Source: Shinella kummerowiae (GTDB taxonomy: Bacteria; Pseudomonadota; Alphaproteobacteria; Rhizobiales; Rhizobiaceae). From it: DNA of 64,000 bases. The position numbers and the translations under genes are program-made. The DNA lies in assembly GCF_009827055.1 (NCBI RefSeq), contig NZ_WUMK01000002.1, positions 620,001-684,000 of the forward strand, written 5' to 3'. The notes beneath the pieces are model-generated. The model ran no database searches, had not been told where the DNA came from, and saw nothing but the letters and a program-made list of their open reading frames with translations. Shown one piece after another: positions 31,457-47,510 of the stretch. The stretch's first letter is position 1. Each line of letters starts with the position of its first letter.

Positions 31457-32341
31457 ATGCTTCCGGATGATCCGGTTTTCCTGATATCGATGGTTGTCGC
31501 CACGCTCGGCCGTTCCAGTGAACTGGACCTGCTGTTCGCGTCGCTTGCCGCGCTCGGACGGCATGATTTCGAAATCATCCTCGTCGATCAGAACAAGGAT
31601 GAGCGCCTCGCGCCGATCGTCTCGCAGTGGCAGGACCGCCTCCACATTCAACATGTCAGGACCGATCGCGCGGGCGTGTGCCGGGCGCGCAATCTCGGGG
31701 CCTCCAAGGCCACCGGCACCTGGCTGCTCTTCCCGGATGACGATTGCTGGTATCCGGCCGACCTCGTCCAGCGTTTCGAGGCGATATCGCAGGCGGTGCC
31801 GGCCGATTTCTACTGCGGACGTGCCGTCAACGCCGAGGGCGAGACGATCATGGGTCGCTTCGAACTCTCGCCCCGCACCATCGAGCGCGAAAACATCTGG
31901 ACAACATTGATCGAGTGGATGCTGTTCGTGCGGCGCTCTGCCTTCGAGAAGGCCGGTGGCTTCGATGATCGCATCGGCCCCGGCTCCGGCACGCCCTGGG
32001 GCGCCTATGAGGTGCAGGATCTGGCGTTGAACCTGCTGTCGACAGGCGCGCGCGGCCATTACGACCCGTCGCTCACCGGCCATCACCCGGATGACCGTCT
32101 GCAGGCGGCAACACCCGACGGCGCACTCAAGATGCGCGTCTACGGCGCCGGCCTGGGTTACGTCATGCGCAAACACGGCTATCGTTTCACCGACTATCTT
32201 CCGCATCTTCTGCGCCCGCTTGCCGGCATTGCCGTCTACACGGTGACGGGCCGTCCGGCACTTGCCCGCCGCTCGCGGGAAATCCTGGCCGGCCGCTGGT
32301 CCGGCTGGCGCATGGCCCCCGCCAAAACGACGATATCTTAA
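31457..32341 (+). CDS. glycosyltransferase family 2
   Basis: A 294-residue GT-A fold glycosyltransferase acting on a lipid-linked glycan in the cytoplasm. The N-terminal nucleotide-sugar site is SMVVATLGRSSELDLLFASL with VDQNKDERLAP; the DxD motif appears as LLFPDDDCWYPADLV; acceptor-side residues include GSGTPWGAYEVQDLALNLLS. ATG 31457 (MLPDDPVFLIS) was chosen; the TTG 63 bases upstream gives a non-family tail. First gene of a plus-strand group with the flippase and hydrolase (gap 58-70 bases), and part of the polysaccharide locus. Confidence 0.85.
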   Translation: MLPDDPVFLISMVVATLGRSSELDLLFASLAALGRHDFEIILVDQNKDERLAPIVSQWQDRLHIQHVRTDRAGVCRARNLGASKATGTWLLFPDDDCWYPADLVQRFEAISQAVPADFYCGRAVNAEGETIMGRFELSPRTIERENIWTTLIEWMLFVRRSAFEKAGGFDDRIGPGSGTPWGAYEVQDLALNLLSTGARGHYDPSLTGHHPDDRLQAATPDGALKMRVYGAGLGYVMRKHGYRFTDYLPHLLRPLAGIAVYTVTGRPALARRSREILAGRWSGWRMAPAKTTIS

Positions 32342-32399: not shown

Positions 32400-33941
32400 A
32401 TGGAACGACCGATGAGCAAGGGCATCATGTCCAATTCGATCATGAATGCTGCGGCGGGCATGCTGCTGCTGGTGACCGGATTCGCCTGCTCGATCCTTGT
32501 CGCCCGCCTGCTCGGGCCGGAAGCCAACGGCACCATTGCCTTTGCGCTGTGGATCGGCGCGACGGGCTCCCTCGTCGCCGAGCTCGGCACCGGCGTGCTG
32601 CTTCTCCGCCTCCTGCCGCAGTTGAAGGCCCGCGGTGTCGACGATGCGGGGCGCCGTGGCTTTGCCGCCTATCTGGCGCTGCCGGTCATCGCCTCCACTC
32701 TCATTCTCGTCGCGCTCTACTTCGGCGTCTCCCTCAAGACGGAGCTGCTCTACGGCACCGACGTGACCACCGGTATCATCGTGCTGACGGCGGCGCTGCT
32801 GTTCATCCAGTCGGTCGGCTCGTTTTCGAAGAACTTCCTGATCGGCGAGCAGCGCCTCGGCACCTTTTTCCGCATCACGGCCCTGTCCTCGCTGCTCCAG
32901 TTCGTCTTCGTCGTCGCCGGTGCGCTGGGTTATGGCATTGCCGGCGCGCTCGTCGGTTACATTGCCGGGCAATGTGTGCAATTCGTCTATACGCTCGGCC
33001 TGTTCGGGGTCCGCCGCGACAACGCCGGCTATCGCCGGCGCTATCTGCTTGGCAATTCCGCGGTGCTGTTCTTCGAATTCGCCGTCAGCGCGGTCTTCCT
33101 CAACCGACCGGAACTGTTCTTCCTGCAGCATTTCCAGTCGCTCGGCGAAGTCGGCTATTATGCCGTCGCCCTGTCGCTCGCCAATCTCGCGCTTCAGCTC
33201 CCCGTGCAACTGACCGGAAGCCTGCTGCCATTCTACGCGGAACGGCGCGAGGCATCTGGCGGCAGCGTGCATGCCAGCATCTTCGACGGCGTGGTGCGCA
33301 GTTTCGCCTATATCACCTTCCCGCTCTGCTTCGGGCTCGCCGCCATTGCCCATCCGCTGGTGACCGCCGTCTACGGCGCGCCCTTCGCCGAAGCCGGACT
33401 GATCGTCGCGATCCTCGCCGCCGGCTCGCCCGCCTATGTCTTCGGCCAGCTCGTCACGCAATATCTCTACTCCATGGACCGGGTGAAAATCCGCCTGGTG
33501 GCAAGCGGCGTCGGCGCGGCGCTGATGGTCGTCGGCCTCTTTTTCGTCGTGCCGGTGGCCGGCGGGGCCGGGGCTGCGGCGGTGCGCGGCGTCGTCTTCG
33601 CCATCATGGTCGGGCTGTTGCTGACGGGTGTCGGCCGCGGCGCCATGTCGGCCGGCCTCTCTGTCATCGTGCTCAAGGTGGGCATTGCCGCCGCCGGCTG
33701 CGGCCTTGCGGCCTGGCCGATCGCCGAAAAGATCGGCGGCTTCACCGGCGTCGTCATCGGTATCCTGGCCGGCGCCGTTGCCTACGGGGTTCTCTTGCGT
33801 CTGCTGCGGGCGGTGCCGGCGGAGGATGGAGCCGTCATCGACAAGATGCTGGAGCGCCTGCCGATGAAACCCGGCCGCATCGCCCGCCGGCTGCTCGCCT
33901 TCGTGGTGCCGCTGCCGCTATCGCAGCCCGCCGGAGAGTGA
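32400..33941 (+). CDS. Wzx-like polysaccharide flippase (MOP superfamily)
   Basis: A 513-residue multispanning protein of the polysaccharide transporter family, which flips lipid-linked repeat units across the inner membrane. About 12-14 hydrophobic segments: the first is NAAAGMLLLVTGFACSILVA, followed by the RLLGPEANG motif typical of Wzx/RfbX. The hydrolase gene follows after 6 bases, so they are co-transcribed. Starts at 32412 or 32427 are also possible. With the Wzy- and Wzz-like genes 8-12 kb away it completes a Wzx/Wzy set. Confidence 0.87.
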   Translation: MERPMSKGIMSNSIMNAAAGMLLLVTGFACSILVARLLGPEANGTIAFALWIGATGSLVAELGTGVLLLRLLPQLKARGVDDAGRRGFAAYLALPVIASTLILVALYFGVSLKTELLYGTDVTTGIIVLTAALLFIQSVGSFSKNFLIGEQRLGTFFRITALSSLLQFVFVVAGALGYGIAGALVGYIAGQCVQFVYTLGLFGVRRDNAGYRRRYLLGNSAVLFFEFAVSAVFLNRPELFFLQHFQSLGEVGYYAVALSLANLALQLPVQLTGSLLPFYAERREASGGSVHASIFDGVVRSFAYITFPLCFGLAAIAHPLVTAVYGAPFAEAGLIVAILAAGSPAYVFGQLVTQYLYSMDRVKIRLVASGVGAALMVVGLFFVVPVAGGAGAAAVRGVVFAIMVGLLLTGVGRGAMSAGLSVIVLKVGIAAAGCGLAAWPIAEKIGGFTGVVIGILAGAVAYGVLLRLLRAVPAEDGAVIDKMLERLPMKPGRIARRLLAFVVPLPLSQPAGE

Positions 33942-33947
33942 GGCGAG

Positions 33948-35741
33948 ATGCTGCGCGGGGAGACCAGACAAAACGACAGAGAGCAGCATGACGCCGCGCC
34001 GCGCTGGCACGCCGGGGAGGCAGCCCTTCCCGTGACCTTCGCGGGCACGGTCGGCCTCTACACGCCCGCTGCCGCCTCCGCCACGCCCTCTGATATCGCC
34101 GTGCTCTTTCTCAGCCCCTGGGGTTTTGAGGAAATGTGCACGCGAAAACTCTGGCGTCTCATCGCCGAGCGGGTCGCCGTCCATGGCGTCGCCAGCCTGC
34201 GCTTCGACTATCCCGGCACGGGCGATGCGCTCGATGCGCCGGAAGAGCAATGCCTCGAGACCTGGTCGCAGGCGATTCTGGAGGCCGGGCGCACGCTGCG
34301 CCGGCTTTCCGGCGCCGCTCGCCTTGTGCTGGTCGGCCACGGTCTTGGTGCGACGCTTGCGGCAAGGCTCGGCAACGCGCTCGATAGCGAGGCGGCCGTG
34401 CTGATGGCCCCGGTGGTCAGCGGCCGCTTCTATCTACGCGAACTGTCCGCCTGGTCGAAGATGGTCGATGAGGGGCTCGGCCTGCGATCGGAGCAGCGCA
34501 TTGCCGGCCGCGTCGCCGTCGCCGGGCTGGTCATGCCGGAAAAGGTCGCCGAAGCCGTCAAGAGCCTCGGCATCGACCGGCTGGAGATGCTGCCGTTTGC
34601 AAAAGCCCTGGTGGTCGAGCGCCCCGGCCGCGAGAAGGATGCGGCGCTTGCCGCGCATCTTTCAAGCCTCGGTGCTGATCTTGCCCGCATGGACTATGCC
34701 GGCTACGACGATCTCGTTTCCAACCCCACATTGGCGCACCAGCCGCAGGCGGTCATCGATGGCGTCGTCCACTGGCTCGCCGGGCTCACCAAGGCCGGCG
34801 GGCGGGCGCGGGCCGCTGCGGAGCCCACAGGCCCGGCGCCGCTGACGGGTGATGGCTTCGTCGAGGAGCCGTTGCGTTTTGGCGAGAACAACCGGCTGTT
34901 CGGAACGCTTTGCGGCCCGCAAGGCCAGCGCCATGGCGCGGCCGTGCTGCTGCTCGGCACCGCCTATGACCGGCAGGCCGGCTGGGCGCGGGGCACGACC
35001 GAGACCGCCCGCTATCTTGCGCAGCACGGCATCGTGTCGCTGCGCTTCGATGCCGCGAATGTCGCCGACAGTCCGCCAGCGCCGGATGCGCCCGAACAGG
35101 TGCAGTACAGCGAAACACAGCTTGCCGATGTGCGGGCGGCGATGGATTTTCTCGTTTCCCGCAATCTCGCGCCCATCCTTCTTTCGGGCCGGTGCAGCGG
35201 CGCCTATCTCGCGTTCCGCGCGGCCGTCACGGATGAGCGCGCGGCCGGCGTCGTCTCGGTCAATCCCTTCACCTTCCGCTGGGACCCGGATATGTCCGTC
35301 GATGAGGCGTTGCGCGCCAATCCGCGCTCGCTCGACGATTATCGCCAGCGCGCCTTCGACCCCGCCACCTTCCGCCGGTTGCTGGCCGGCGAGATCGACC
35401 TGCGCCGCGCGGCCGGCAATGTCGGTGTGCAGATCGCCCGCCGCCTTGCCGTCATCGCACCCCGCACGCTCGGCCGTTTCTCCCGTTTCGGCCGGTTGCG
35501 GGGTGATACGCAGGCGGATTTCCGCCTGCTTGCGAAACGCGGGGTGCCGGTGCTGCTGGTCTATAGCGAAGGGGACGTCGGGCTGGAGCGGCTGAAGCTC
35601 GATTTCGGCCGCACCGGGCTCGACAGCTACCACAACGTGGCGGTCGAGATGATCCCCGATGCCGATCACAATCTCTCGCCGCCGCATGCCCAGGCCGCCT
35701 ATCGCGCGCTGCTGCTCAAGGCTGCCCTGAAGTTCGCCTGA
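33948..35741 (+). CDS. tandem alpha/beta-hydrolase fusion with altered nucleophile positions
   Basis: A 597-residue cytosolic protein made of two alpha/beta-hydrolase units (~40-290 and ~305-597), similar to the exosortase/EPS-associated hydrolase family. In unit 1 the nucleophile elbow reads LVLVGHGLGATLAARL, so the expected GxSxG serine is glycine. In unit 2 it reads LLSGRCSGAYLAF: cysteine sits at the nucleophile position. A late Asp (YSEGDVGLE) and His (PDADHNLSPPHAQ) complete a plausible Cys-His-Asp triad for unit 2. Six bases after the flippase; convergent (3 bases apart) with the GH2 gene. It may be an acyl or aminoacyl esterase/transferase for the glycan. Confidence 0.8.
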   Translation: MLRGETRQNDREQHDAAPRWHAGEAALPVTFAGTVGLYTPAAASATPSDIAVLFLSPWGFEEMCTRKLWRLIAERVAVHGVASLRFDYPGTGDALDAPEEQCLETWSQAILEAGRTLRRLSGAARLVLVGHGLGATLAARLGNALDSEAAVLMAPVVSGRFYLRELSAWSKMVDEGLGLRSEQRIAGRVAVAGLVMPEKVAEAVKSLGIDRLEMLPFAKALVVERPGREKDAALAAHLSSLGADLARMDYAGYDDLVSNPTLAHQPQAVIDGVVHWLAGLTKAGGRARAAAEPTGPAPLTGDGFVEEPLRFGENNRLFGTLCGPQGQRHGAAVLLLGTAYDRQAGWARGTTETARYLAQHGIVSLRFDAANVADSPPAPDAPEQVQYSETQLADVRAAMDFLVSRNLAPILLSGRCSGAYLAFRAAVTDERAAGVVSVNPFTFRWDPDMSVDEALRANPRSLDDYRQRAFDPATFRRLLAGEIDLRRAAGNVGVQIARRLAVIAPRTLGRFSRFGRLRGDTQADFRLLAKRGVPVLLVYSEGDVGLERLKLDFGRTGLDSYHNVAVEMIPDADHNLSPPHAQAAYRALLLKAALKFA

Positions 35742-35744
35742 TTT

Positions 35745-38192
35745 TCAGAACGACACGATCGCCTCGACGCCGATACCACCCACCGTGCCGGAGGGTTTGG
35801 CAGCCGGATCGGTGCCGGCGCGTGGCACAAGCCGGATGGTTTTTGCGCCACCCGGCGCCAGATGGAACCAATTGTCCGACGGCAGAAACCCTTCGACGTT
35901 GATTGCGACGGACTGGGCGAAACGATCCGCCGAAAGCGCGAGGTTCCAGCCTTCAGCGTCTTGATCGAGGGTGGAGCTGATCGCCGCGAAAGCCATCGCC
36001 GCCGCCCGGCCGCGCGGAAAATGGAAGGCGTCCGCAACCACAGTCCCATCGGCATCGATCAGCCGGGCGACCGTCACGTCATGGGCGGGTGGGCCGAAAC
36101 GGAAGGCATAGGTCGTGTCGAAGAAGGCGCCGAACAGTTGAGTTGCCGGCAGGGTTTGCGCCGAATGCGGGGCAAGCGTGATCTCCCGCCGGCCGCTGAC
36201 GACCGGTTGGCGGCCGTGTCGCAGGCAGGAAAGCTCCAGCGTCAGGGATTGTTCGTCTGCGCTGTCGTTGATCGTATGCACATCGAGCCCGTTGGTGCCC
36301 TCGTCGGACACTGCGACCTGCACCGGCCGGAAGGCACGGCGCAATGCATGCCAGGCGGATTTCGGCAGGCCCGTGGCGTCCACGATGCCCCAGCCGGCGC
36401 CGGGCAGCAGGTCCTGGAACGTCCAGACGAGCGCGCCGTTGCACGTGGATTGTTCGCGGCGCCATTCGGCAAACGTCGCCTCCATGACCTCGGCGACGAC
36501 GGCGCGGGAGAGATCGAGGTAGCGGGCCGGGTCCTCCCGGCGCAAGCGCGCCGGATCATGGCCGTAGAGCAGGCCGAGATAGTGGTCGCGCACATCCTCG
36601 AAGTCCCAGGAGGCGCCGCGGTCGCGCGGCACGCGCGCCTTCCAGCGCGGATCGTGTACGGCGGGCACCGGCAGGTGGGCATCGAGTGTCTGCTGTTCCG
36701 GCACATTGGCAAAGGCGAGGCTCTCGGCGGCAAAACGCACCGCGGCGCGACGCGCGTCCTCCAGCGGCCGGCAATAGGCGCCGACACCGTAATAATGCGT
36801 CACGCCAGCATCGGGCGAGAAGGGCATGGCGCCACCGCTCGGCGAATTTTCGACATAGGGCACATCCGGACGGTGTACGGCGACGAGGGCGGGCAGGATG
36901 TCGAGCGTCAGCGGCCCGGCCCAGGCCGTCTCCGGCAGGCCGAGCATGGCCGCCTGCTGGTCGATCTCGCTGCCGCCGCAGAGCACGGCGAGCGACGGCG
37001 AGGCAGCGGTGGCGTCGAGGAACTGCGAAACCTCCGTGCGGACGTTTTCGACAAAGGTCGGATCGTTCGCCGGGTAATCAAAATTGGCGAACTGGAAATC
37101 CTGCCAGACCATCAGGCCAAGCTCGTCGCACAGCGCAAAAAACGCCGGCGTCTCGTAGGCCATGGTGCCGCCGATGCGCAGCATGTTCATGTTGGCGTCG
37201 GCAGCGAGGTTCAACAGCGGTTCGTAGCGCTCGCGCGTGCCCGGCAGGTCGACGATGTCGGCAGTGGTCCAGACGGCACCGCGGCAGAAAATTTTCGTGC
37301 CGTTGACGATGAGCGCGAAGTCGCGGCCGTCCGTGCCGCGGTCGACCTCGATGCGACGGAAACCGGTACGGCCGAGGGTTTGCCGCACGCCACCCACCAC
37401 GAGCGAGATATCGTGCAGGACCGGTGTCCCATGCGTGCGCGGCCACCAGGCTTCGACGCCGGGGATGGTGAGGCTGGCGCTGAAACTGTGGTCGCCGTTC
37501 GGGATCGCTTCGACTGAAACGCCGGCGCATTCCACGACAGGTGCCGCCGCGCTATCCAGCGTGAAACCGATCTCGAGCTGGCCCTTGCCGTTTTCGTGCA
37601 GGCGCGCGGAAAGGCGGATATCGGTGGGAACAGCCGGCGTCGGCCGCGTGAGGCGCACCGGCCGCCAGGGGCCTGCGGCATAAACATCCGGGCACCAACC
37701 GGGCATGCGGCCAAGCAGCGTCGTGCGCACGAGGCGCAGACCCTGCGGCGTGATCATCTGCGGCCGCCAGCGGGCACGGGGACCGCGTTTTTCCAGATGC
37801 GGTTTTAATGCGCGGAAACACAGCGCGAGGTGGTCGCTGCCGGTCAGCGTGACGGGAAGCGCGTGGCGCACGAACATGCTGCCGGAGGAAAGGGCAAGCG
37901 CGCCGTTCCACCAGATCTCGGTGATCGTCGCGAGGCCGTCGAAATGCAGCACGGCCTCGCCCGGCGCTTCGCCCGAGAGATCGAGCATATACCAGGCGTC
38001 GAGATGGTCGAGCGGTTCAGGGGCGGTGCGATCGAAGCGACCGGCGCGCTCGAGGGCGCCGGCGACGGTGCCGGGAACGGGCGCATCGAGAACATCGGAA
38101 AGGCTTTGCAGCGCGGCAGGGTCAGCCGCACTGCCTGCCGCCGTCAAGGCCATGCGCCAGCCGGTGGAAAGCGCCTTTCCGGTCTCGGACAT
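35745..38192 (-). CDS. glycoside hydrolase family 2 protein (beta-mannosidase-like)
   Basis: An 815-residue GH2 enzyme lacking a signal peptide. N-terminal jelly-roll with LDAWYMLDLSGEAPGEAVLHFDG (in part: HFDGLATITEIWWNG), immunoglobulin-like domain, and TIM barrel with GTKIFCRGAVWTTADIVDLP, the MNMLRIGGTMAYETPAFFALC strand and the WQDFQFANFDYP region typical of beta-mannosidases; acid/base Glu likely in LCGGSEIDQQ (the usual N of NE is S) and nucleophile near the GALVWTFQDLLPG strand. ATG 38192 has GAAGGAAAAGG. It is the fifth gene of the carrier-protein operon (11 bases after DUF1839), an unusual partner. The altered GSE motif deserves checking for activity. Confidence 0.85.
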   Translation of the reverse strand: MSETGKALSTGWRMALTAAGSAADPAALQSLSDVLDAPVPGTVAGALERAGRFDRTAPEPLDHLDAWYMLDLSGEAPGEAVLHFDGLATITEIWWNGALALSSGSMFVRHALPVTLTGSDHLALCFRALKPHLEKRGPRARWRPQMITPQGLRLVRTTLLGRMPGWCPDVYAAGPWRPVRLTRPTPAVPTDIRLSARLHENGKGQLEIGFTLDSAAAPVVECAGVSVEAIPNGDHSFSASLTIPGVEAWWPRTHGTPVLHDISLVVGGVRQTLGRTGFRRIEVDRGTDGRDFALIVNGTKIFCRGAVWTTADIVDLPGTRERYEPLLNLAADANMNMLRIGGTMAYETPAFFALCDELGLMVWQDFQFANFDYPANDPTFVENVRTEVSQFLDATAASPSLAVLCGGSEIDQQAAMLGLPETAWAGPLTLDILPALVAVHRPDVPYVENSPSGGAMPFSPDAGVTHYYGVGAYCRPLEDARRAAVRFAAESLAFANVPEQQTLDAHLPVPAVHDPRWKARVPRDRGASWDFEDVRDHYLGLLYGHDPARLRREDPARYLDLSRAVVAEVMEATFAEWRREQSTCNGALVWTFQDLLPGAGWGIVDATGLPKSAWHALRRAFRPVQVAVSDEGTNGLDVHTINDSADEQSLTLELSCLRHGRQPVVSGRREITLAPHSAQTLPATQLFGAFFDTTYAFRFGPPAHDVTVARLIDADGTVVADAFHFPRGRAAAMAFAAISSTLDQDAEGWNLALSADRFAQSVAINVEGFLPSDNWFHLAPGGAKTIRLVPRAGTDPAAKPSGTVGGIGVEAIVSF

Positions 38193-38203
38193 TGCCTTTT
38201 CCT

Positions 38204-39157
38204 TCAGTCGATGCGGGCAGCAAGACCCGACATCAGAGTATCCCACGCCTCGATTGCCGGGTCGAGCGCCGTTGCCAGCGGATCGAACTTTCGCCGGGTC
38301 ACCGCACGGGCAAGCTGGAATTGCACGGACTTCGCCGTCTCCGAAATTTTGCGCGCGGCGTCGCCGCCATCAAGGCCCAGCCAGTCTAGATGGCTGCCGG
38401 CCAGCTCGAAATTGGCGCCGAGCTGGCGCAGCGTGTTGAAGGCGTATTTGTGGAAGAAGCCGAAGGGGCGATCCGCCACGGCCTCGACCTGCTTCGGAAA
38501 CACCTTCGCGAAGGCCGCAACCGGATTTTCCGTTGGGCGCCGGGCGAAGTGGAAAGCAAGCAGGCGTTTTGCCTCGCGGCGCAGATGCAGGTCGTCCGGG
38601 CGCTTTTCCGGGAATTTGGCGAATTCCGTATAGGGCAGGAAGGGCAGAGCGTCGGGGCCGTAGTTCAGTTGGAACAGGCCGTCGAAATCCTCGCCTTCCA
38701 GCCGGAAGAAGCCGGCATTGTGGAAATAGTCGAGCTGCTTTGCTTCGAGATCCAGCCGGTTGATCGCCACCGTCGTCTTGCCGTGCTCCTGACGGTAGGC
38801 GACGCCGCGGGTGTCCGGCATGTAAAAGCTGTCCATCTCGACGAGGCAGAGACGGCCGCGGGCGATCTGCGTCGCGATGTGGCTCTCGACCGTGTCGAAG
38901 ATGGCAAGCTCCGTCGCGCGGATGCCATAGAGCGCTTCGAGGTCTTCCAGCGGCACCTTGAAGAAGGTGAACTGGTCGCCCTCGAAATCCTGGGTCAGCG
39001 AGAAGCCGAGCATCGCCTCGGGATGGCTGCCGAACGCATTCAGCACCTCGATCCATAGGTCGACATAACAATTCGTCTCCGGCCACATGCGCTCTGCGTC
39101 GTGCAGGGCATGCGGCCGGTAGGTCTCGGGATTGGCCCCGGCGAAGACGGCAGCCAT
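38204..39157 (-). CDS. DUF1839-family protein, partner of the amino acid:carrier-protein ligase
   Basis: A 317-residue protein of the DUF1839 family: MAAVFAGANPETYRPHALHD, then ERMWPETNCYVDLWIEVLNA, LVEMDSFYMPDTRGVAYRQE, and a C-terminal helical half (LGANFELAGSHLDWLGLDGG). No cofactor motif is recognised; SFYMPDTxGxxYxxxHxKT is a strongly conserved-looking patch containing Asp and His residues. It starts 2 bases after the ligase stop, so it is co-translated. The family is repeatedly found next to aa:CP ligases, hence likely downstream handling of the aminoacyl-carrier, e.g. transfer of the amino acid to an acceptor. This role is inference. Confidence 0.8.
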   Translation of the reverse strand: MAAVFAGANPETYRPHALHDAERMWPETNCYVDLWIEVLNAFGSHPEAMLGFSLTQDFEGDQFTFFKVPLEDLEALYGIRATELAIFDTVESHIATQIARGRLCLVEMDSFYMPDTRGVAYRQEHGKTTVAINRLDLEAKQLDYFHNAGFFRLEGEDFDGLFQLNYGPDALPFLPYTEFAKFPEKRPDDLHLRREAKRLLAFHFARRPTENPVAAFAKVFPKQVEAVADRPFGFFHKYAFNTLRQLGANFELAGSHLDWLGLDGGDAARKISETAKSVQFQLARAVTRRKFDPLATALDPAIEAWDTLMSGLAARID

Positions 39158-39159
39158 GC

Positions 39160-40074
39160 TCAGTCCTGATATCCCAGAACCTTGCGGACATCCGCAGGCC
39201 AGGTCGCGATATCCATGCCGTGGCGGGCAAAGAGCGCGAGCGCAATGCGCTCCAGGCCGAAGCCGACGCAGGCAGTGTGCGCGACGTCGCCGTTTTCGAG
39301 GTTCAGCCCCCACTTCGCGCCAAAAGCGTCCTGATGGTAGTTGAAGCTCATGCAGGCCGTTGGCTTGGCGGCCGAGGTGACGGGAATGAGCAGCTCGAAC
39401 TTCAGGTTCTGGTCACGCTGGTTGTTGGCCATCATGCGGCCGGCGCGGCCGAAGAACGGATCGTTGGCCACATCCATCGTCACGTCGAGGCCGACCTTGG
39501 CCATCATTTCGAGACCGCGGTCCATCCAGGTCTGGCGGAACTCGGTCACATGCTCCTGCGTCCCCATGCACACGTACTCGCGCATGCGAAAAAGCTGCTG
39601 GCGGGCCGGGTCGTTGGAGGGCTCGTGACGGAAGCAATAGGACTGCAGATCGTAGAGGCCGCCCTTGGCCGGCAGGCGACCGCGCTTGGCGATGGTCGGA
39701 TAGAGCGGATAGCAGGCGGCCGGCGTCAGCACGATGTCGGTCGCCTTCTGGTCCTTCGTCCAGTCGCCGTTCACTTCCATGCATTGCAGCAGGTTCATGT
39801 GGTCGGCATCGCCGCCGCAGAAGCTGTGCACGGTGCCGGCGAGCTGCGGAAAGCTCTTCATGTAGCCGGAGGTTTCGAAATGCGCGCGGTTCATGCCTGG
39901 CGGGAATCGCATGGCTTCTGCGCCATCACGGCCGCCATAGGCGTCGATCAGCCGCTCGAAGCGGGCGATGACGTCCTCGAAGGCGCCCGAGCGGCCATAG
40001 AGGCCTTCGACGCCGGTATCGATGAGCAGGCCTGAATCGAAGAGCCTGTCGAGAAGGGAGGTCTGCATATCCAT
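39160..40074 (-). CDS. amino acid--[acyl-carrier-protein] ligase (seryl-tRNA synthetase homologue)
   Basis: A 304-residue class II aminoacyl-tRNA-synthetase-like enzyme without the tRNA-binding coiled coil. Family members from Bradyrhizobium and Agrobacterium activate glycine or alanine with ATP and load it on the phosphopantetheine of a dedicated carrier protein. Motif 2 reads [19 protein letters not shown]; motif 3 is [19 protein letters not shown]. Cysteines in [10 protein letters not shown] / NLLQCMEV and TACVGFG with the motif-2 Glu could form the Cys-Glu-Cys zinc site of these enzymes and of archaeal-type SerRS. ATG 40074 is 4 bases after the preceding stop. Amino acid specificity cannot be read by eye. 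Confidence 0.9.
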
Positions 40075-40078
40075 GGTG

Positions 40079-41251
40079 TCACCCAATCAGGCTGGTGTCC
40101 TGCTTGTGGACAAGCAGGAGGTTGGACGTGTTGCCGAGGATGCGGTCGTTGGAAATCATCAGCTGGGCGGAGTGGGCATCGCGCAGGTGCCGGCCGATAC
40201 TGAACGGCGTGCCATTCTTGTAGCCCATGATGCCGACGATCAGCATCGCCTGGTTGATGATGGCGAGGATCGTTTCAGAGGAGGCGATCTTCACGTTGTT
40301 CATCGCCACCGCAAAGCCCATGGAGGACAGCCGGTCCGGATCCGCCTTGGCGGCTTCGTATTCGCGCAGGCCGGCAATCGTGTTCGACTTGACGAGCTGC
40401 AGCAGGTTGGAGGCTTCCGCCAGCCGCAACGCGCCGGGCGGCGTGACGCCGGGACTCTTGCGCGCAGCGGCGCGCACGAAGGCCTGGGCGCGGGAAACCG
40501 CGTTGACGGCGATGCCGTACCACACGGCACTCCACAGCAGGTGCGAGGTGGCGAGCATCGATTGTGCGGCGATCTCGGCAAAGGGCTTGGGCAGGATCTG
40601 TTCCTTCGGCGCCTCGCCCTTGAACAGCCAGCCGTCCGAGCAGGTGCCGCGCATGCCGAGCGTATCCCAGACATGGGTCTGCTCCAGCGTGTACTGGTCC
40701 TTGGTGAAGACGGTCATGACCTGATCGGTCGAGGCGGCGTCGGCATGCGCCCGCGACGTGATGAGGATCGCGTCGGCATGGGCGCCGTAGGAAATGACGG
40801 TGGCGTCCTTCGTGAGGCGGCAGGTGTCGCCGTCAATCTCGATGGCGCAGATGCTGTTGCGCAGATTGCCGCCGATGCCGCCCTCGGTCGTCGCCGAAGC
40901 GAGCAGCAGCTGTTCGTCGGAGACCCGGCGCATGAAGGCGGAATGCCAGGTGTCGCCGGCGCCATGCGAGACGAGGCTCGACAGCTTGATGTGGTGCATG
41001 GCGAAAACCATGGCGGCGGCCGAGCAGCTCTGGCCGATCAGCGAACAGGCTTCGGCGATCTCGGAAAGGGAGCAATCCTCGCCGCCGAGGGCTGCGGGGA
41101 TCTGGATGGACAGCAGCCGTTCGGCGATCATCGCATCGACGGCTTCCCGCGGGAAACGGCCTTTGGCGTCCACGTCGTCGGCATGCACTGCGGCCACGGC
41201 GGACACGCGCTGGGCGCGTTCCGCAAGGCTCGTACCGACGGTCATGGTCAT
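40079..41251 (-). CDS. acyl-CoA dehydrogenase-like flavoprotein of the carrier-protein operon
   Basis: A 390-residue acyl-CoA dehydrogenase superfamily protein: helical N-domain ([20 protein letters not shown]), beta-domain ([20 protein letters not shown] ... [17 protein letters not shown]), C-terminal helices ending [19 protein letters not shown]. The segment aligned with the catalytic YEGT of classical enzymes reads ILGNTSN, so that Glu is missing. It overlaps the carrier gene by 4 bases and precedes the ligase by 4, so its substrate is more likely an aminoacyl-carrier thioester than acyl-CoA. It could oxidise the aminoacyl group or act as an FAD-dependent hydroxylase (the nearest relatives include monooxygenase-like members). 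Confidence 0.85.
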
Positions 41252-41502
41252 TCGGCGGCCTCCGCGCTGCCGGTCAGACCTTCGACCGCCCGCGTGATCG
41301 CGGCGATGCTCTGGAAGGACTTGCGGTTCAACAGGTTGTCGGGGAACTCCACGTCGAAGGCTTCCTCGATGCCGAGCATCACCTGAACGGAGGCAAAGGA
41401 AGACAGGCCTGCGGCATAGAGATCGGCGTCGTCGGCCAGCGTATCGACCGGCACCGGGAGACCGCCGTGCTTGGCCAGAATGTCACGGATCTTCTGCTTC
41501 AT
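41248..41502 (-). CDS. dedicated acyl (aminoacyl) carrier protein
   Basis: An 84-residue carrier protein. The phosphopantetheine site is DLYAAGLSSFASVQVMLGIE with the modified serine at about residue 35 (LSS in place of DSL). The helical bundle ends [16 protein letters not shown] 41502 (MKQKIRDILAKHG) is preceded by GGAG at 6 bases; an ATG four codons upstream is less likely. First gene of the five-gene operon; its 3' end overlaps the flavoprotein start (ATGA). It is distinct from fatty-acid AcpP in sequence and location. Confidence 0.92.
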   Translation of the reverse strand: MKQKIRDILAKHGGLPVPVDTLADDADLYAAGLSSFASVQVMLGIEEAFDVEFPDNLLNRKSFQSIAAITRAVEGLTGSAEAAE

Positions 41503-41586
41503 GTTGTTCTCCATCGCGTTGTTTGTCGTTCACGGCCGGACAGCGGACCGTCGTCGTATTCTTCCGAAAAGACATAACCGACGGTT

Positions 41587-41875: not shown

Positions 41876-43936
41876 ATGGACATAGATATTTTTCAGTTGC
41901 CCGGAATTGTGCTGAAGAGAATCCACTATGTGATTCTCTGCGCGCTCGCCTGTGCCGTGCTCGCGCTCGGCTTCGTGATGACCCAGAAGCCGTTCTATCG
42001 CTCCACGGCAGAAGTCTTTGTCGATATCCAGCGCGGCCCCGTCGTCGGCACGGATACCGGCGGCACGATGAACATGCAGCAGCTGATCGGCAGCCAGCTT
42101 TACCTGTTCCAGTCGCGCGACGTGCTGCGCGACGTCGTCAAGCGTCTCGACCTCGAGAAGGACCCATATCTCACCGGTGGCGGTGGTGGCCTGATGTCGA
42201 AAATCCTCGGGCGCAAGCCCGCGGAGGGAGATGCGACGAACGGCGTCGTCGATGCCATCCTGGAAAACCTGCTGGTCGCCCGCAACGGCGACACCTTCGT
42301 TTTCACCATCCAGATGAAGCACCGCGACAGCGAAATGGCCGCAAAGATCGCCAATGCCATCGCCGAAAGCTATCTGCGCATCGCCGACACGTCGCGGCTC
42401 GACGTCAACCTGCGCACCTCCAAGACCATCGAGGAGCAGACGGAAGAGCTGCGCCAGCGCGTGCTCGATGCCCGCGCCAAGGTGGAGACCTACCGGGCCG
42501 AGAACGGCCTTCTGACGACCGGTGAACAGGGGCTGATCGCCGACCAGCAGCTTGCCGCACTCAACCAGCAGCTGATTGCCGCCCGCCAGCAGGCCGAGCA
42601 GCAGAAGACCGCCTATGACCAGGCGCAACAGCTCAACATGTCCGATGTCGAATCGGGCGCCATTCCCGAAGCGCTGCAATCCACCGCGCTGACGGGGCTG
42701 CGCAGCCGCTATTCGCAGATGCTCGACCGCCAGGCGGAGCTCTCGGCCAATCTCGGCAACGGCCATCCGCAGATGAAGGCCGTGCGCTCGCAGATCGCCA
42801 GCATCCGCGGGGCGATTGAAAAGGAGCTCGTGCGCATTCGCCAGCTCTCGGCCAACACCTATCAGCGGGCGCAGACAAACCTCGCCGCGGTGCAGAAGCG
42901 CTTCGATGAACAGGCGACGGCGACCGGCGACAATGGCAATGTCCGCTACCGCCTGGCGCAGCTCATCAGCGAAGCCGACGCGATCGACGCGGTCTACAAG
43001 TCGTTCCTGACGCGTGCCGAGGAGCTGAGCCGCCAGCAGGATCTCGGCAACGGCAATTCGCGCATCATCTCGGCGGCCACGCCGTCCGGCAAGGCCATCC
43101 AGGCGCCGAAACTGCTTGTGCTCATCGCCGCAATCCTGTTCGGCACGGCTGCCGGTGCAGCGCTTGCCGTGGTGCGCGAACTGTTCGGCGGCACCGTGCG
43201 CTCGGAAAAGGACCTCGTCACGAAGACGGGCGCACCGGTCATCGCCGTGATCGAGGACGAGAATGCCGGCCGGAGCGAAAGCCGCTGGAGCGACAAGCTT
43301 GCCCGCGTGGTGCCGTTCGGCCGTGATGCGGCGCGGCACGATGCAACACCGCGCGTCTCGGGCCTCACGCGCGCGGCGCATCTGCTGGATGCGCAGTTCG
43401 AGCCGGGTGTTCCGGTGACGATCGCCGTGCTCTCCGCCGGCAGCGCCGGTTACGGCAATGCGGCACTCGGCATTGCACGCGAATTGCAGATACTCGGGCA
43501 GGACGTGCTGTTTTCCGACGGCGAGCTTCGCCGCGTGGCACAGAGCCCGCTGCGCGCCACCGGTTCGGTGAAGATCCGCACCGATTTCGCGCGGCCTTCC
43601 GGCGAGCGACACTCGCGCGGCCACGCCCAGACACTCGAGGACATGCTGCATTTCCGCCGCCTCGGCTCCGGCGGACTGCGCAAGGTCTCGGTCCTTTCGT
43701 CCGCCCGGGTCAGCACGTCGTTCCGCGACGAGGCTGCCGATTTCACGATCATCGACTGCTGCGGCACGCCGGCCGAGGCGATCCTTCCCGCCGTGCTGCG
43801 CCATGTCGACGGCATCCTGGTGGTTTCCGCCATCGGGGCGACCGGCAGCGAGGCGCTGTCGGCCCTGGTCTCCGAAATCGCGCCGTGGCGCGACAAGCTG
43901 GTCGGCAACATCCTGATCGGCGACCGGGCCGCCTGA
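41876..43936 (+). CDS. Wzz/GumC-type chain-length protein with degenerate BY-kinase domain
   Basis: A 686-residue polysaccharide co-polymerase. TM1 ~residues 13-35 (IHYVILCALACAVLALGF), a long periplasmic Wzz domain with coiled coils (AALNQQLIAARQQAEQQKTA), the PxxP-like segment before TM2 (~415-435, LLVLIAAILFGTAAGAALAV), then a cytoplasmic domain resembling the autokinase of ExoP/Wzc. Its P-loop is degraded: VLSAGSAGYGNAALGIAREL, where the Walker A Lys is Asn and no GKS remains; no C-terminal tyrosine cluster is seen. ATP-dependent kinase activity is therefore unlikely, and length control may be constitutive. ATG 41876 (MDIDIFQLPG) was chosen. It starts the plus-strand pair with the Wzy-like gene (10 bases apart). 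Confidence 0.88.
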   Translation: MDIDIFQLPGIVLKRIHYVILCALACAVLALGFVMTQKPFYRSTAEVFVDIQRGPVVGTDTGGTMNMQQLIGSQLYLFQSRDVLRDVVKRLDLEKDPYLTGGGGGLMSKILGRKPAEGDATNGVVDAILENLLVARNGDTFVFTIQMKHRDSEMAAKIANAIAESYLRIADTSRLDVNLRTSKTIEEQTEELRQRVLDARAKVETYRAENGLLTTGEQGLIADQQLAALNQQLIAARQQAEQQKTAYDQAQQLNMSDVESGAIPEALQSTALTGLRSRYSQMLDRQAELSANLGNGHPQMKAVRSQIASIRGAIEKELVRIRQLSANTYQRAQTNLAAVQKRFDEQATATGDNGNVRYRLAQLISEADAIDAVYKSFLTRAEELSRQQDLGNGNSRIISAATPSGKAIQAPKLLVLIAAILFGTAAGAALAVVRELFGGTVRSEKDLVTKTGAPVIAVIEDENAGRSESRWSDKLARVVPFGRDAARHDATPRVSGLTRAAHLLDAQFEPGVPVTIAVLSAGSAGYGNAALGIARELQILGQDVLFSDGELRRVAQSPLRATGSVKIRTDFARPSGERHSRGHAQTLEDMLHFRRLGSGGLRKVSVLSSARVSTSFRDEAADFTIIDCCGTPAEAILPAVLRHVDGILVVSAIGATGSEALSALVSEIAPWRDKLVGNILIGDRAA

Positions 43937-43946
43937 GGAGAGCGAG

Positions 43947-45281
43947 ATGGCGGCGCGGCAAGCCTATGCAGGACCTCCCGGCTCCGGCGGCTTCGTCCGC
44001 CATGCCGTGCCGTCCCCCGACGCGACGGATGACGGTTTGCCGCTTGCCATGCGGCTCTACCGGTTTCTCGCCATCATCACCGTGCTTGGCGCGCTGGTGT
44101 TCAACCCGTTCCTCGCCTTCGTCAACACGCGCATCATGGGCGTGGCCGACAGCCATGTGATGCTGGCGGAACTGGCGATCGTCGGCTGCACCTTCATCGC
44201 CGCGATGACGCGGAAATCCGGGCTCTACATCTTCCTCGCCGTGTTCTTCACCTACATGGTCTTCCTGTTCATGCTGCGCGGCGGCGTGGTGAACCCCAAG
44301 CCGATTCGCGACATCCTCATCCCGCTCGTCTTCTATTTCATGGGCCGGCGCATCGCCGATCTCAAGCTCTGCGACCGGCTGGTGGTGGCAAGTGCCGTCA
44401 TCGTCGTCGTCTTCGGCCTGTTCGAATATCTCTTCCTCGAGACCTTCCTCGAATATTTCAACGTCATCGGCTACTACCTCGCGCGTGGCTCGGTGACGCT
44501 CGACCAGACATTCGGCCAGACCAAGGGCCTGTTCATCTCCGGCCAGCGCCCGGAAGCGCGCACCATCCTGCCCTTCCTCGGCCAGCACCGCGTCTCCTCG
44601 GTGTTCCTGGAGCCGGTCTCCATGGGCAATTTCGCGGTGATCATCTATTCCTGGGCGCTGTTTCGCGGCCAGGCCTTCAAGGGGCGGTGGCTCACCTTCC
44701 TGCTCGCCTTCACGGTGGTGGCGCTGGCGGATGCGCGCTTCGGCCTCTACACCTGCGTGCTCATCACGCTGCTCTACCCGTTCTACCAGCTCCTGCCGCG
44801 CCTCTTCTGGAGCGTGCTGCCCTTCCTGCTGCTGGCGGTGCTGGCGGTCTATGGCGTGACGTCGGTGGAGGGCGGCGGGCCGAACGATCTCGCCGGTCGT
44901 TTCGCGGTGACGGCGCATATCCTGACGCAGCTGACGATCGGCGTCGTGCTCGGCATCGAAACGACGAGCCAGTTCGTCTCGGATTCAGGCCTTGCCTATT
45001 CGCTGGTGGCCTTCGGCCTCTTTGGCTTCATCACGCTCTGGAGCCTGTTCGTGCATGCGCCGGTCGTGCATGCCAAGGCGTGGAAATTCCACTCCATGGT
45101 CATCGTCTACATGCTGCTTCTGATGCTGATCAGCGACTCGTTCTATTCGATCAAGACGGCGGCGCTGATGTGGTTCATCCTTGGGAGCTCGAATGCCTTC
45201 GACCACGGCAAGGAACTGGCAGAGCGCCTAGCGGCGAAGCGCAAGGCAGCTGCCGGGCCGGGCCGGCAGGTTGCCGCCTGA
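43947..45281 (+). CDS. Wzy/O-antigen-ligase-like polysaccharide polymerase
   Basis: A 444-residue polytopic membrane protein with about ten hydrophobic segments and a large periplasmic loop around residues 170-220 (YYLARGSVTLDQTFGQTKGL, then SGQRPEARTILPFLGQHRVS and SSVFLEPVSMGN), the charged loop typical of Wzy/WaaL proteins. SD GAGGAGAGCGAG precedes ATG 43947. Co-transcribed with the Wzz-like gene. Its last 54 bases overlap the 3' end of the opposite-strand GH5 gene. Confidence 0.82.
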   Translation: MAARQAYAGPPGSGGFVRHAVPSPDATDDGLPLAMRLYRFLAIITVLGALVFNPFLAFVNTRIMGVADSHVMLAELAIVGCTFIAAMTRKSGLYIFLAVFFTYMVFLFMLRGGVVNPKPIRDILIPLVFYFMGRRIADLKLCDRLVVASAVIVVVFGLFEYLFLETFLEYFNVIGYYLARGSVTLDQTFGQTKGLFISGQRPEARTILPFLGQHRVSSVFLEPVSMGNFAVIIYSWALFRGQAFKGRWLTFLLAFTVVALADARFGLYTCVLITLLYPFYQLLPRLFWSVLPFLLLAVLAVYGVTSVEGGGPNDLAGRFAVTAHILTQLTIGVVLGIETTSQFVSDSGLAYSLVAFGLFGFITLWSLFVHAPVVHAKAWKFHSMVIVYMLLLMLISDSFYSIKTAALMWFILGSSNAFDHGKELAERLAAKRKAAAGPGRQVAA

Positions 45282-46280
45282 GACGAGGGCTGCGAGCTGC
45301 GGCCGGTCGCCGTCGGCGGTCGGCTGGATGTTGAGCGGTTCCGTTGCCGGCCACCAGTCGCCGGCCGCCCAATAGGTCCAGCCGGTCCAGACATCCGCTT
45401 CCTTGCCGATCAGCGCCGTCATACGGGTGAGCCCGTCGAGGCAGGCCGGATTGGCCGATGCGCCGAACTCACCGAGGAAACCGCGCTTGCCGTTGCGCTT
45501 CAGCCAGTCGGTAAAATGCGCCAGCGCGCCCACCGCGTCGTCCGCCCGCTCACAGGTGTCGGTCGTGCCGGAAAAATCCTTGTCGAGATATTGATGCACC
45601 TCGTAGGCATTGTTGTCGGCCGGATCCTGGATGCCGAGCATGACGGTGCCGTTCGCGCCGCCCGGACGGTCATCCTCCCAGCTATGCGCACCGGTCCAGA
45701 TCGTGCCGGGGATCAGGACGAGGTTTTTGGCACCCGTCTCGCGAATGGCGGCAATCGCCGCATTGGCGGAGACGAGCCAGCGATCCGCCGGCACATCGTG
45801 CGGCTCGTTCATCAGCCCGAACTGCACGCCGTCGTCATCCTTGTAGTCGTCGGCAAGACGCTTCCAGAAATCGGCAAATGCGCTGTCCGGCACCTCGGTC
45901 GAGCCGATCTGCTTGTCGCCGTAATAGGCGTAGTTGTGCGGGTCGAGGATGACGGTCATGCCGGCGCCGCGCAGGGCCTTGACCGTTTCGGAAAGCCGTT
46001 TCCTTTCCGCCTTGTCGAAGCCGCGGCCGAGCCGGGGTTGCAGCCGCTCCCATTTGAAGGGCAGCCGCACGGCGTTGAACCCCTTGCCGGCGAAATAGGC
46101 GATCGTCTTTTCCGAAGGGTAGGCATAGTCCTTGTCGTAGGTTCCGCGCCCTTCGCCGAATTCGGCGCCGGCGAGATTGATGCCGCGCAGGCATCCAGCA
46201 CTCGCCTCGAGCGGAACCGCAAAAGCCACCATGGCTGCCACCAGTCGAAAGAGTGTCCCGCTGCGGGATGAGGATCGCAT
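45228..46280 (-). CDS. secreted glycoside hydrolase family 5 (endoglucanase-like)
   Basis: A 350-residue exported hydrolase. Signal peptide MRSSSRSGTLFRLVAAMVAF with cleavage after EASAG, then a (beta/alpha)8 barrel: RGINLAGAEFGEG, FNAVRLPFKWERLQP, ILDPHNYAYYG, the acid/base in VQFGLMNEPHDV and the nucleophile in GFLGEFGASANPAC. These are the usual GH5 catalytic Glu residues. In EPS loci such enzymes trim or release the polymer (compare ExsH/EglC types). It is 18 bases after the GT4 gene, so probably co-transcribed with it. Confidence 0.9.
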   Translation of the reverse strand: MRSSSRSGTLFRLVAAMVAFAVPLEASAGCLRGINLAGAEFGEGRGTYDKDYAYPSEKTIAYFAGKGFNAVRLPFKWERLQPRLGRGFDKAERKRLSETVKALRGAGMTVILDPHNYAYYGDKQIGSTEVPDSAFADFWKRLADDYKDDDGVQFGLMNEPHDVPADRWLVSANAAIAAIRETGAKNLVLIPGTIWTGAHSWEDDRPGGANGTVMLGIQDPADNNAYEVHQYLDKDFSGTTDTCERADDAVGALAHFTDWLKRNGKRGFLGEFGASANPACLDGLTRMTALIGKEADVWTGWTYWAAGDWWPATEPLNIQPTADGDRPQLAALVSGGNLPARPGSCLALRR

Positions 46281-46298: not shown

Positions 46299-47510
46299 TC
46301 AGGCGCCGGTCCGCTCCGTGAGCAAGCCGCGTGGCTCGCCGCGCCGGCTGTCGCCAAGCGCGGCACGATAGACGTCGACGTAGCGATCCGCCACCCGGTC
46401 CCACGAATAGGCCGCGGCCGCGTCGATTGCGGCGCGGCGATAGCCGGCAGGGTCGCGCGAAAGCATCGTATAGGCGTCGCCTAGACCTTCGGCGGCAAGC
46501 CGCGCATCGGAAAAATCGCAAAGCCGGATTTCGGGATGGCTGGCGGCAAGGTCCGTATAGGCGACATTCGGATGCAGCACCGGCACCAGCCCCGCCGTCA
46601 TCGCCTCGATGGCAACGAGGCCAAAACCCTCATATTCAGACGCCGAGGCGAACAGCGAGGTGTCGCCGATCAGGTGACGCACGGCGCCGTTCGACAGGCC
46701 GACATGCACATCGACATGTTTCTCCAGCCCGCGGGCGCGCACCATGGCGGCCAGGTCGTCTCCGGAATGATCGCCCGGCACGCCGGCAATCTCCAGGTGC
46801 CATTCGGGATTCTCCGCCACGAGTGGCACCATGGCGTCCATCAGCCGGTCGAGGCGCTTGTTGACGGAAAAACGGCCGACGGTGATCAGCCGGCGACGCG
46901 GCTCGCGCACACCGGCATCGGCAAATTTCTGCGTGTCGGCACCGTTGTCGATGCGGGTGACGCGGCGCCCGGCGATGCGCTGGAACGTGCGGGTATCCTG
47001 CGCGCTGCACCCGATGATCCGGCGATAGGCGAAGGAGGAAAAACGCGTCGTCGTGTTGAACCACAGCGTCTTGAGGCCGGAGAATTTCGCCGTGTGGAAG
47101 AAGCCGCCATGGGTGGTGGCGACGAGCGGCTTGCGATGCAGGAGCCAGCCCCAGGCCAGCGCATCGTAGAAGAAGTCGATCGCATGCACATGCACGAGGT
47201 CGGCGTCAGCGAGATGGCGGAACACTTTTGGCGCGATCGGATACCGCGTGCTGCCGGAAAAGGGAATGCGCACCACTTCGACGCCGTCGATCATCTCGCG
47301 GGCGGGCAGGGTCTTGTCCGGGGCGGAAAACAGCCGGTCGAGCGTGACGACCCGCACGCGAAAGCCGCGCGACAAAAGCTGGCGGGAAAGCTGTGCGACC
47401 ACATCCTCCAGCCCGCCGCGGTTCGGGATGTACTGGCGCACGACCTGCACGGCGAGCGGGGCCGAGGCATTGGCGGAGGAGGTGATGGTTGCTGGGCTCA
47501 TTCCGGTCAT
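46299..47510 (-). CDS. glycosyltransferase family 4
   Basis: A ~403-residue GT-B glycosyltransferase. N-terminal acceptor loop VRQYIPNRGGLEDVVAQLSR; the hinge TVGRFSVNKRLDRLMDAMVP; the donor-binding EX7E in SEYEGFGLVAIEAMTAGLVP; nucleotide site HPNVAYTDLAASHPE. ATG 47510 (MTGMSPATITSS) is preferred over 47543, which overlaps no SD. It adds a sugar, probably to the growing lipid-linked unit of the locus. Transcribed with GH5; divergent from the ABC exporter across a CtrA-type box. Confidence 0.88.
   Translation of the reverse strand: MTGMSPATITSSANASAPLAVQVVRQYIPNRGGLEDVVAQLSRQLLSRGFRVRVVTLDRLFSAPDKTLPAREMIDGVEVVRIPFSGSTRYPIAPKVFRHLADADLVHVHAIDFFYDALAWGWLLHRKPLVATTHGGFFHTAKFSGLKTLWFNTTTRFSSFAYRRIIGCSAQDTRTFQRIAGRRVTRIDNGADTQKFADAGVREPRRRLITVGRFSVNKRLDRLMDAMVPLVAENPEWHLEIAGVPGDHSGDDLAAMVRARGLEKHVDVHVGLSNGAVRHLIGDTSLFASASEYEGFGLVAIEAMTAGLVPVLHPNVAYTDLAASHPEIRLCDFSDARLAAEGLGDAYTMLSRDPAGYRRAAIDAAAAYSWDRVADRYVDVYRAALGDSRRGEPRGLLTERTGA

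Follow-up and report, generated by a model that had tools for sequence, protein, structure and literature searches.

What is made by a set of genes that joins a carrier protein to an amino acid ligase, a flavoprotein and a glycosidase, and does the product belong to the polysaccharide whose putative assembly genes lie on either side? The question is raised by a 64,000-nucleotide stretch of the Shinella kummerowiae genome (contig NZ_WUMK01000002.1, positions 620,001 to 684,000; hereafter the window), in which five genes on the minus strand encode an acyl carrier protein (ACP; 41248..41514, 88 amino acids, PF00550 and NF005480), a flavoprotein of the acyl-CoA dehydrogenase (ACAD) fold (40079..41251, 390 amino acids, with the N- and C-terminal ACAD domains of Pfam), an amino acid:[carrier protein] ligase with a class II core like that of seryl-tRNA synthetase (SerRS; 39160..40074, 304 amino acids, NF005479), a papain-like DUF1839 protein (38204..39157, 317 amino acids, PF08893) and a GH2 glycosidase of the β-mannosidase type (35745..38192, 815 amino acids, assigned from Pfam and PDB alignments). 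Successive genes are spaced by -4 (an overlap), 4, 2 and 11 bases, and the operon that a sequence-only reading of the window had described is confirmed, its spacings exactly. We report that this cassette is a portable, widespread unit whose DUF1839 protein, as modelled, matches CcbD, CtaG and AziU2-U3 in fold, and we judge the chances about even that it is a movable pathway for aminoacyl transfer to an amino sugar of a surface glycan.

Conservation and spread of the cassette

A scan of species genomes for the ligase yielded 43 loci at 57–99% identity to that of the window (95–99% for four Shinella loci), a set tilted towards close relatives because the ligase was used to find it. Each of the 43 loci matched all five proteins of the window in the same order. 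Among these, the copy at a contig end (L017) and two others with partial matches (L030 and L033) were incomplete. The second sample consisted of 398 Pseudomonadota genomes, that of the window among them; 28 had a ligase above cut-off and 16 had a DUF1839 gene, which in each case adjoined a ligase, and the five-gene order was found in all 16 (one of them, G000, being the window genome). Likewise, the order was kept in 10 of 11 annotated plasmid stretches around ligase or DUF1839 matches, the eleventh being a remnant. The five-gene order is thus kept far beyond chance.

The other 12 ligase genomes of the second sample represent a sister group, in which a flavoprotein lay nearby in every case and an ACP match in 10 of 12. 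Flavoprotein and ligase recurred in all 12 of these loci, and the other clusters of neighbouring genes were mostly confined to one genus or were shadow open reading frames. The conserved core of carrier, flavoprotein and ligase that the sequence-only reading had described holds in the 43 relatives and extends to the sister clade. In a ligase tree of 73 of the 95 available rows (the 22 loci removed in advance being near-duplicates, broken copies or, in one case, a remnant; alignments A1–A5 cover only the window and 10 plasmid loci), clade A comprised 49 rows (support 94/88), clade B comprised 12 (96/94), and the remaining 12, distant ligases, stood apart from both. The two gene architectures fall into these two tree groups, clade A with DUF1839 and GH2 and clade B without them. 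Betaproteobacterial rows (Caballeronia, Mycetohabitans and the f66 genomes) nest beside Azospirillum, and one Bradyrhizobium row sits within Mesorhizobium; this nesting, together with the location of cassettes on plasmids, suggests lateral movement.

We also encountered distant SerRS-like ligase homologues in other Pseudomonadota (L072–L082 and L084), with open frames mostly of 400–480 amino acids and no flavoprotein, DUF1839 or GH2 match nearby. Decayed or possibly broken copies of the cassette were seen at L095:13968-14960, L030 and L033 (Rhizobium leguminosarum Vaf10, Mesorhizobium loti UFLA 01-765 and M. silamurunense) and in genome G197, where the ligase match has one internal stop.

DUF1839 and its partner proteins

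The DUF1839 protein scores 444.8 bits against PF08893 (gathering cut-off 22.5), a family to which PMC10318531 assigns a papain-like fold with a permuted Cys-(Thr/Ser)-His triad and, as a guess, a role in glycan processing. Here the triad is Cys30-Thr129-His146. Of 74 rows, 71 have Cys30 (the others show a gap, Gln and Arg), 71 have Thr129 (the others a gap and two Cys) and 73 have His146 (the other a gap). When an AF2 model made with 24 sequences (pLDDT 84.9) was compared with the PDB by Foldseek, all 19 matches at E <= 0.001 were to AziU2-U3, CtaG or CcbD (E 2.5e-8 to 3e-4, TM-score 0.47–0.63), and BtrH was not represented. Next, at E ~0.014, came staphopain C and phytochelatin synthase, and a sequence search of the PDB with the DUF1839 profile returned two matches, at E 0.63 and 0.91, that we take as chance. 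CcbD, an enzyme of celesticetin biosynthesis, forms an amide between a proline tethered to a carrier protein and an amino sugar by way of a Cys thioester, and its sugar site takes in residues of the neighbouring monomer (PMC12945683). On the strength of the modelled fold, DUF1839 is predicted to be, probably, a carrier-dependent amide synthase. The sequence-only reading had the aminoacyl thioester passed, perhaps via DUF1839, to a sugar or glycan; the match to CcbD and CtaG makes DUF1839 the likely transfer enzyme and a sugar a plausible acceptor.

Substitutions of Cys30 and Thr129 occur only in operonic copies of the Cupriavidus type. We checked five such genomes (L058; L049 and L083, which belong to one genome; and three records named as Cupriavidus, L105, L106 and L107), and in 5 of 5 the operonic DUF1839 has Arg or Gln for the Cys and a second DUF1839 keeps the motif intact. 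The two copies are ~4 kb apart in L058 (9301-10278 and 14135-15394), L105 and L107 and ~7 kb apart in L106, and L049 and L083 are on two contigs. A single DUF1839, with its Cys, was present in the stretches L089, L104 and L108, and the Cys is kept in ten plasmid rows too. Because the Cys-less operonic copies come with an intact second copy, we infer that the chemistry of the Cys is needed and that the Cys-less copy may be retained in a partner role.

The ligase scores 510.8 bits against NF005479 (amino acid--[acyl-carrier-protein] ligase; cut-off 357), has 304 amino acids compared with 518–527 in related serine--tRNA ligases, aligns to PDB 4h2w and 3mey, and belongs to clade A. The Cys/Glu/Cys positions that we take to be the zinc ligands are kept, Cys121 in 94 of 95 rows (one gap) and both Glu166 and Cys269 in 95 of 95. 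At position 150, which adjoins the motif 2 Glu, the same rows have His (71), Arg (12), Tyr (10), Asn (1) or a gap (1); Arg is found in L052 of clade A and otherwise in clade B (11 of its 12 rows), and the residue is a possible clade marker. Ligases of this kind were reportedly described in 2010. Relatives load glycine or alanine according to the table of a review, which also lists serine (PMC9437257).

The ACP belongs to the PP-binding family and scores 120.5 bits against NF005480 (cut-off 72), and its phosphopantetheine serine, Ser39, is present in 76 of 76 aligned ACPs. An alternative start at the internal Met5 (41502) would give 84 amino acids; 9 of the other 10 aligned homologues start there, and it is where the sequence-only reading had placed the end of the operon.

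For the flavoprotein, an AF2 model (pLDDT 84.1) gave an ACAD fold by Foldseek, and residues were mapped by reading its alignment to short-chain ACAD. Position 366, presumably that of the catalytic Glu of MCAD (E376), is Ile in 80 of 82 rows (one Val, one gap), and position 236, which we take to be that of the alternative base (E254) of IVD, is Ser, Ala, Thr or Cys in the 82 rows, so that there is no catalytic Glu. Every one of the 82 rows, those of the sister clade included, has His86, His237 and Trp240. DnmZ (76.7 bits) and KijD3 (72.4 bits) stand among the nearest PDB profiles, together with an ACAD at 75.8 bits and another discussed below, and the Foldseek list is led by TdsC, KijD3 and DszC, mixed with ACADs; the protein thus appears about equally near to sugar nitrososynthases and to ACADs. 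Because the catalytic Glu is absent and DnmZ and KijD3 are near, an oxidation other than α,β-dehydrogenation is favoured, and the enzyme is probably of the monooxygenase or amine-oxidase type. Monooxygenation was also proposed in a note added in proof to a 2010 paper (PMC2922099).

The GH2 protein is nearest to β-mannosidases and aligns with 2je8 and 5n6u over most of their length. Glu409 is present in 69 of 71 rows (two gaps) and Glu490 in 68 of 71 (two gaps, and a Ser in the partially matched GH2 of L030); from the alignment we take them to be the acid/base and the nucleophile, respectively. In place of the usual Asn before the acid/base Glu there is Ser408 in 68 of 71 rows (Asn in one, two gaps). 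A Ser at this place may mark exo-β-glucosaminidases; the best stretch of alignment to CsxA (profile 71-367) ends before this residue. No signal peptide was evident by eye, and the enzyme is probably cytoplasmic.

Finally, a two-domain α/β hydrolase encoded convergently on the plus strand (33948..35741), a fusion of hydr2_PEP-like and hydr1_PEP-like halves (TIGR03101 and TIGR03100, both under cut-off), is the usual sixth gene of the cassette. It was found in 39 of the 43 loci, in fetched stretches of up to 10 kb on each side, and is mostly convergent in Rhizobiaceae and co-directional in Mesorhizobium and two Azospirillum loci.

Genomic neighbourhoods

The sequence-only reading had placed the operon inside a Wzx/Wzy-type polysaccharide locus. 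For the window this is plausible, and linkage to such genes is enriched: Wzz (PF02706) or a flippase (PF13440) lay within 30 kb in 9 of the 16 cassette genomes versus 1.28 expected (P ~7e-7 under a chance model that ignores the relatedness of genomes and takes them as independent), and in 3 of the 12 sister-clade genomes versus 0.97 expected. For these counts distances were read from tables by eye, and G255, in which there is a contig break, was scored as negative. In a broader survey of 69 loci (near-identical strains kept separate, window excluded, a few stretches short), a polysaccharide-type gene was detected within 10 kb of the cassette in 27, a GH5 match being the sole basis in three (L005, L008 and L053) and ManC in one (L035); the match in L090 may be false and due to a ParA-type protein, and L065 has a probable flippase that the survey missed. 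The sequence-only reading had named the absence of GH2 and Wz linkage from relatives as a ground for refutation, and the outcome is split: every intact cassette seen has GH2, and Wz genes are often absent. With only 27 of 69 loci positive, we rejected the view that the cassette is a component of Wzx/Wzy loci as such; the polysaccharide locus of the window is one cassette context among several.

The other contexts are varied. Three loci of the Burkholderiaceae type (L045, L054 and L058) have genes for an initiating sugar transferase (Bac_transf), ManC, Wzc or Poly_export nearby. In an Agrobacterium locus the cassette adjoins an ABC transporter and genes that we read from their translations as thiamine-type, and in Phyllobacterium it adjoins repABC in a setting that includes a major facilitator superfamily (MFS) transporter. 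Two Caballeronia plasmids have no annotated polysaccharide genes by the cassette and do have ABC transporters. On plasmid pRgalIE4872c of Rhizobium gallicum (L093:11640-17499) the cassette follows nifHDKENX-fdxB and precedes a gene for 1-aminocyclopropane-1-carboxylate (ACC) deaminase. A scan of this nif region gave eight sigma-54 promoter matches at <=1 mismatch versus 2.18 expected, none of which falls in the interval immediately before the ACP gene at 11640.

In the window itself, the local context comprises, on the plus strand and outside the cassette, genes for a Wzx-like flippase (32412..33941, PF13440), a Wzc/GumC-like chain-length protein (41876..43936, PF02706 and PF13807) and a Wzy-like protein (43947..45281), the last so labelled from a reading of its sequence and having no Pfam or NCBIfam match in profile searches. 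In L094 a gene annotated as of the O-antigen ligase family adjoins a GumC gene, a parallel in position to the Wzy-like gene of the window. Glycosyltransferases of families GT2 (31490-32341) and GT4 (46299-47501) flank the cassette, and a cellulase-type GH5 (45228-46232), matches to which recur near 10 of 69 other cassettes, adjoins the Wzy-like gene.

A proposed pathway and its relation to known systems

Starting from the observed gene content, its conservation, the fold match and the catalytic residues, we propose the following pathway. The SerRS-like ligase would adenylate a small amino acid of the glycine/alanine class and load it onto the phosphopantetheine of ACP Ser39. The flavoprotein would modify the carrier-bound aminoacyl group, N- or α-oxidation being likelier than α,β-dehydrogenation. 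DUF1839 would accept the acyl group on Cys30 and hand it, in the manner of CcbD, to an amine that most likely belongs to an amino sugar. GH2 may act on the glycosidic moiety of either acceptor or product, and the linked α/β hydrolase may edit or release the product. The acceptor would lie in a surface glycan, with its assembly genes next door, as in the window, or elsewhere. We infer loading from characterised relatives of the ligase, and likewise infer every later reaction and the acceptor itself. The resemblance of DUF1839 to CcbD and CtaG and the Cys-loss pairs point to a concrete, testable reaction, transfer of a carrier-bound aminoacyl group to an amino sugar, that would link the evolution of aminoacyl-tRNA synthetases (aaRS), carrier-protein chemistry and the tailoring of glycans.

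The varied neighbourhoods lend themselves to a different account, in which the product would be a self-contained N-aminoacyl amino sugar of low molecular weight (a signal, an antibiotic-like compound or a storage compound) and the Wz genes are neighbours by convenience. The logic would be like that of lincosamide synthesis with an aaRS-like loader, and GH2 and the hydrolase would process or unmask the compound. Cassettes with unrelated neighbours (repABC with an MFS transporter, nifHDKENX with ACC deaminase, ABC transporters) fit such a product, as does CcbD, a fold match that serves a small-molecule pathway. However, the enrichment of Wzz and flippase genes and the exopolysaccharide (EPS) genes of the Burkholderiaceae-type loci speak for a surface glycan, and neither dedicated amino-sugar synthesis nor a constant exporter was seen in the cassette; we hold this account possible and the less probable of the two. 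A further reading strikes us as speculative and rather improbable: a transferable pathway of Pseudomonadota resembling lincosamide synthetase but free of nonribosomal peptide synthetases, in which an aaRS-derived loader, a flavoprotein that is like a sugar-amine oxygenase but acts on an aminoacyl carrier, and a papain-fold amide synthase with a permuted triad would yield an oxidised N-aminoacyl amino sugar trimmed by a cytoplasmic GH2, the Cys-less and Cys-bearing DUF1839 proteins of Cupriavidus acting as a pair.

Two further alternatives concern single enzymes. DUF1839 might be a thioesterase or editing enzyme that frees an oxidised amino acid, the product being the free modified amino acid and the link to glycans indirect. 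Hydrolases are common among papain-fold enzymes (the next fold matches are staphopain C and phytochelatin synthase), and in the sister clade carrier, flavoprotein and ligase are all that is kept. Nonetheless, none of the 19 leading fold matches is a protease, and a free amino acid would not need the GH2 that every intact cassette has; we regard this alternative as quite improbable. Similarly, the nearness of DnmZ and KijD3 in sequence and fold would suit a flavoprotein acting on the amino sugar instead of on the aminoacyl carrier. We doubt it, since the 12 sister loci, which have neither DUF1839 nor GH2, still pair the flavoprotein with the ligase, and an aminoacyl-carrier substrate fits this better.

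Several observations weigh against transfer to a surface glycan as we have proposed it. No polysaccharide-type gene was detected within 10 kb in 42 of the 69 loci, and a Wzx/Wzy setting is accordingly not required. No glycosyltransferase belongs to the cassette, so a glycoside for GH2 would have to come from elsewhere. DUF1839 and GH2 were not found in the stretches fetched around the 12 sister-clade ligases. The best single PDB profile match of the flavoprotein is an ACAD (87.1 bits). The order of the DUF1839 triad is unlike that of known amide synthases, which have Cys-His-Glu/Asp, and comparison of DUF1839 with BtrH_N by hhalign (alignments of 11 and 6 rows) gave a probability of 1.2% and E 0.043.

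How does the cassette compare with systems already described? Bll0957 of Bradyrhizobium (PDB 3mey and 4h2s–4h2y) is of the same family as the window ligase and keeps the Cys/Glu/Cys, but has Arg in place of His150. Bll0957 is absent from the tree; because its Arg is common to 11 of the 12 clade B rows, it would belong with clade B, which lacks DUF1839 and GH2, whereas the window ligase is in clade A, which has both. The β-mannosidases 2je8 and 5n6u share both catalytic Glu residues with the window GH2 but differ from it in the residue before the acid/base Glu, which is Ser here, and in the window protein's lack of an evident signal peptide. A parallel with EPS loci of the exosortase-A type, which have hydrolases 1 and 2 and ligase_PEP_1, is that a hydr2-type hydrolase, homologous to the N-terminal half of the cassette hydrolase, stands beside this exosortase-associated ligase in five of the eight sampled genomes with ligase_PEP_1 above cut-off (G019, G024, G127, G131 and G087, and not G102, G107 or G155, among the matches listed), four of the five hydrolase matches being below cut-off. 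There the ligase is AMP-forming, whereas the window has an aaRS-like loader and fused hydrolases, and we treat the parallel as a lead only.

The transfer step has closer counterparts. The lincosamide condensation enzyme CcbD/LmbD and CtaG are alike with DUF1839 in their papain-like fold and length (~300–350 amino acids); they differ in that CcbD has a Cys-His-Glu triad (PMC12945683) and the PDB entries for CtaG name variants of C11, H128 and D144, whereas DUF1839 has Cys-Thr-His, and identity is only 11–17%. BtrH (PF14399), an ACP:aminoglycoside acyltransferase, is likewise described in PMC10318531 as papain-like and as catalysing carrier-dependent transfer to an aminoglycoside, but it has no significant profile match to DUF1839.

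The nearest precedent is the note added in proof to PMC2922099 (Biol Direct 2010;5:48), which describes a neighbourhood of SerRS paralogues made up of an ACP, a redox enzyme, an Atu2574-type protein, a glycosidase and liposaccharide genes and predicts that Atu2574 (DUF1839) ligates an amino acid to a surface amino sugar. Both the genes and the proposed ligation to an amino sugar match those put forward here. The sequence-only reading had presented as new both the GH2 gene in fifth position and the polysaccharide setting; since these were already in the 2010 note, we rejected that claim of novelty, and the mechanism that accompanied it is strengthened. The literature that we searched, in which most subscription papers were beyond reach, yielded no in vivo product for these ligases, for DUF1839 or for the Agrobacterium tags. 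The 2010 passage assigns no fold to Atu2574 and is silent on portability, on paralogue pairs with loss of the Cys and on the split of the ligases into clades; these, together with the match of the DUF1839 model to CcbD and CtaG, a flavoprotein without its catalytic Glu and a GH2 that keeps both of its own, are what the present analysis adds to that precedent.

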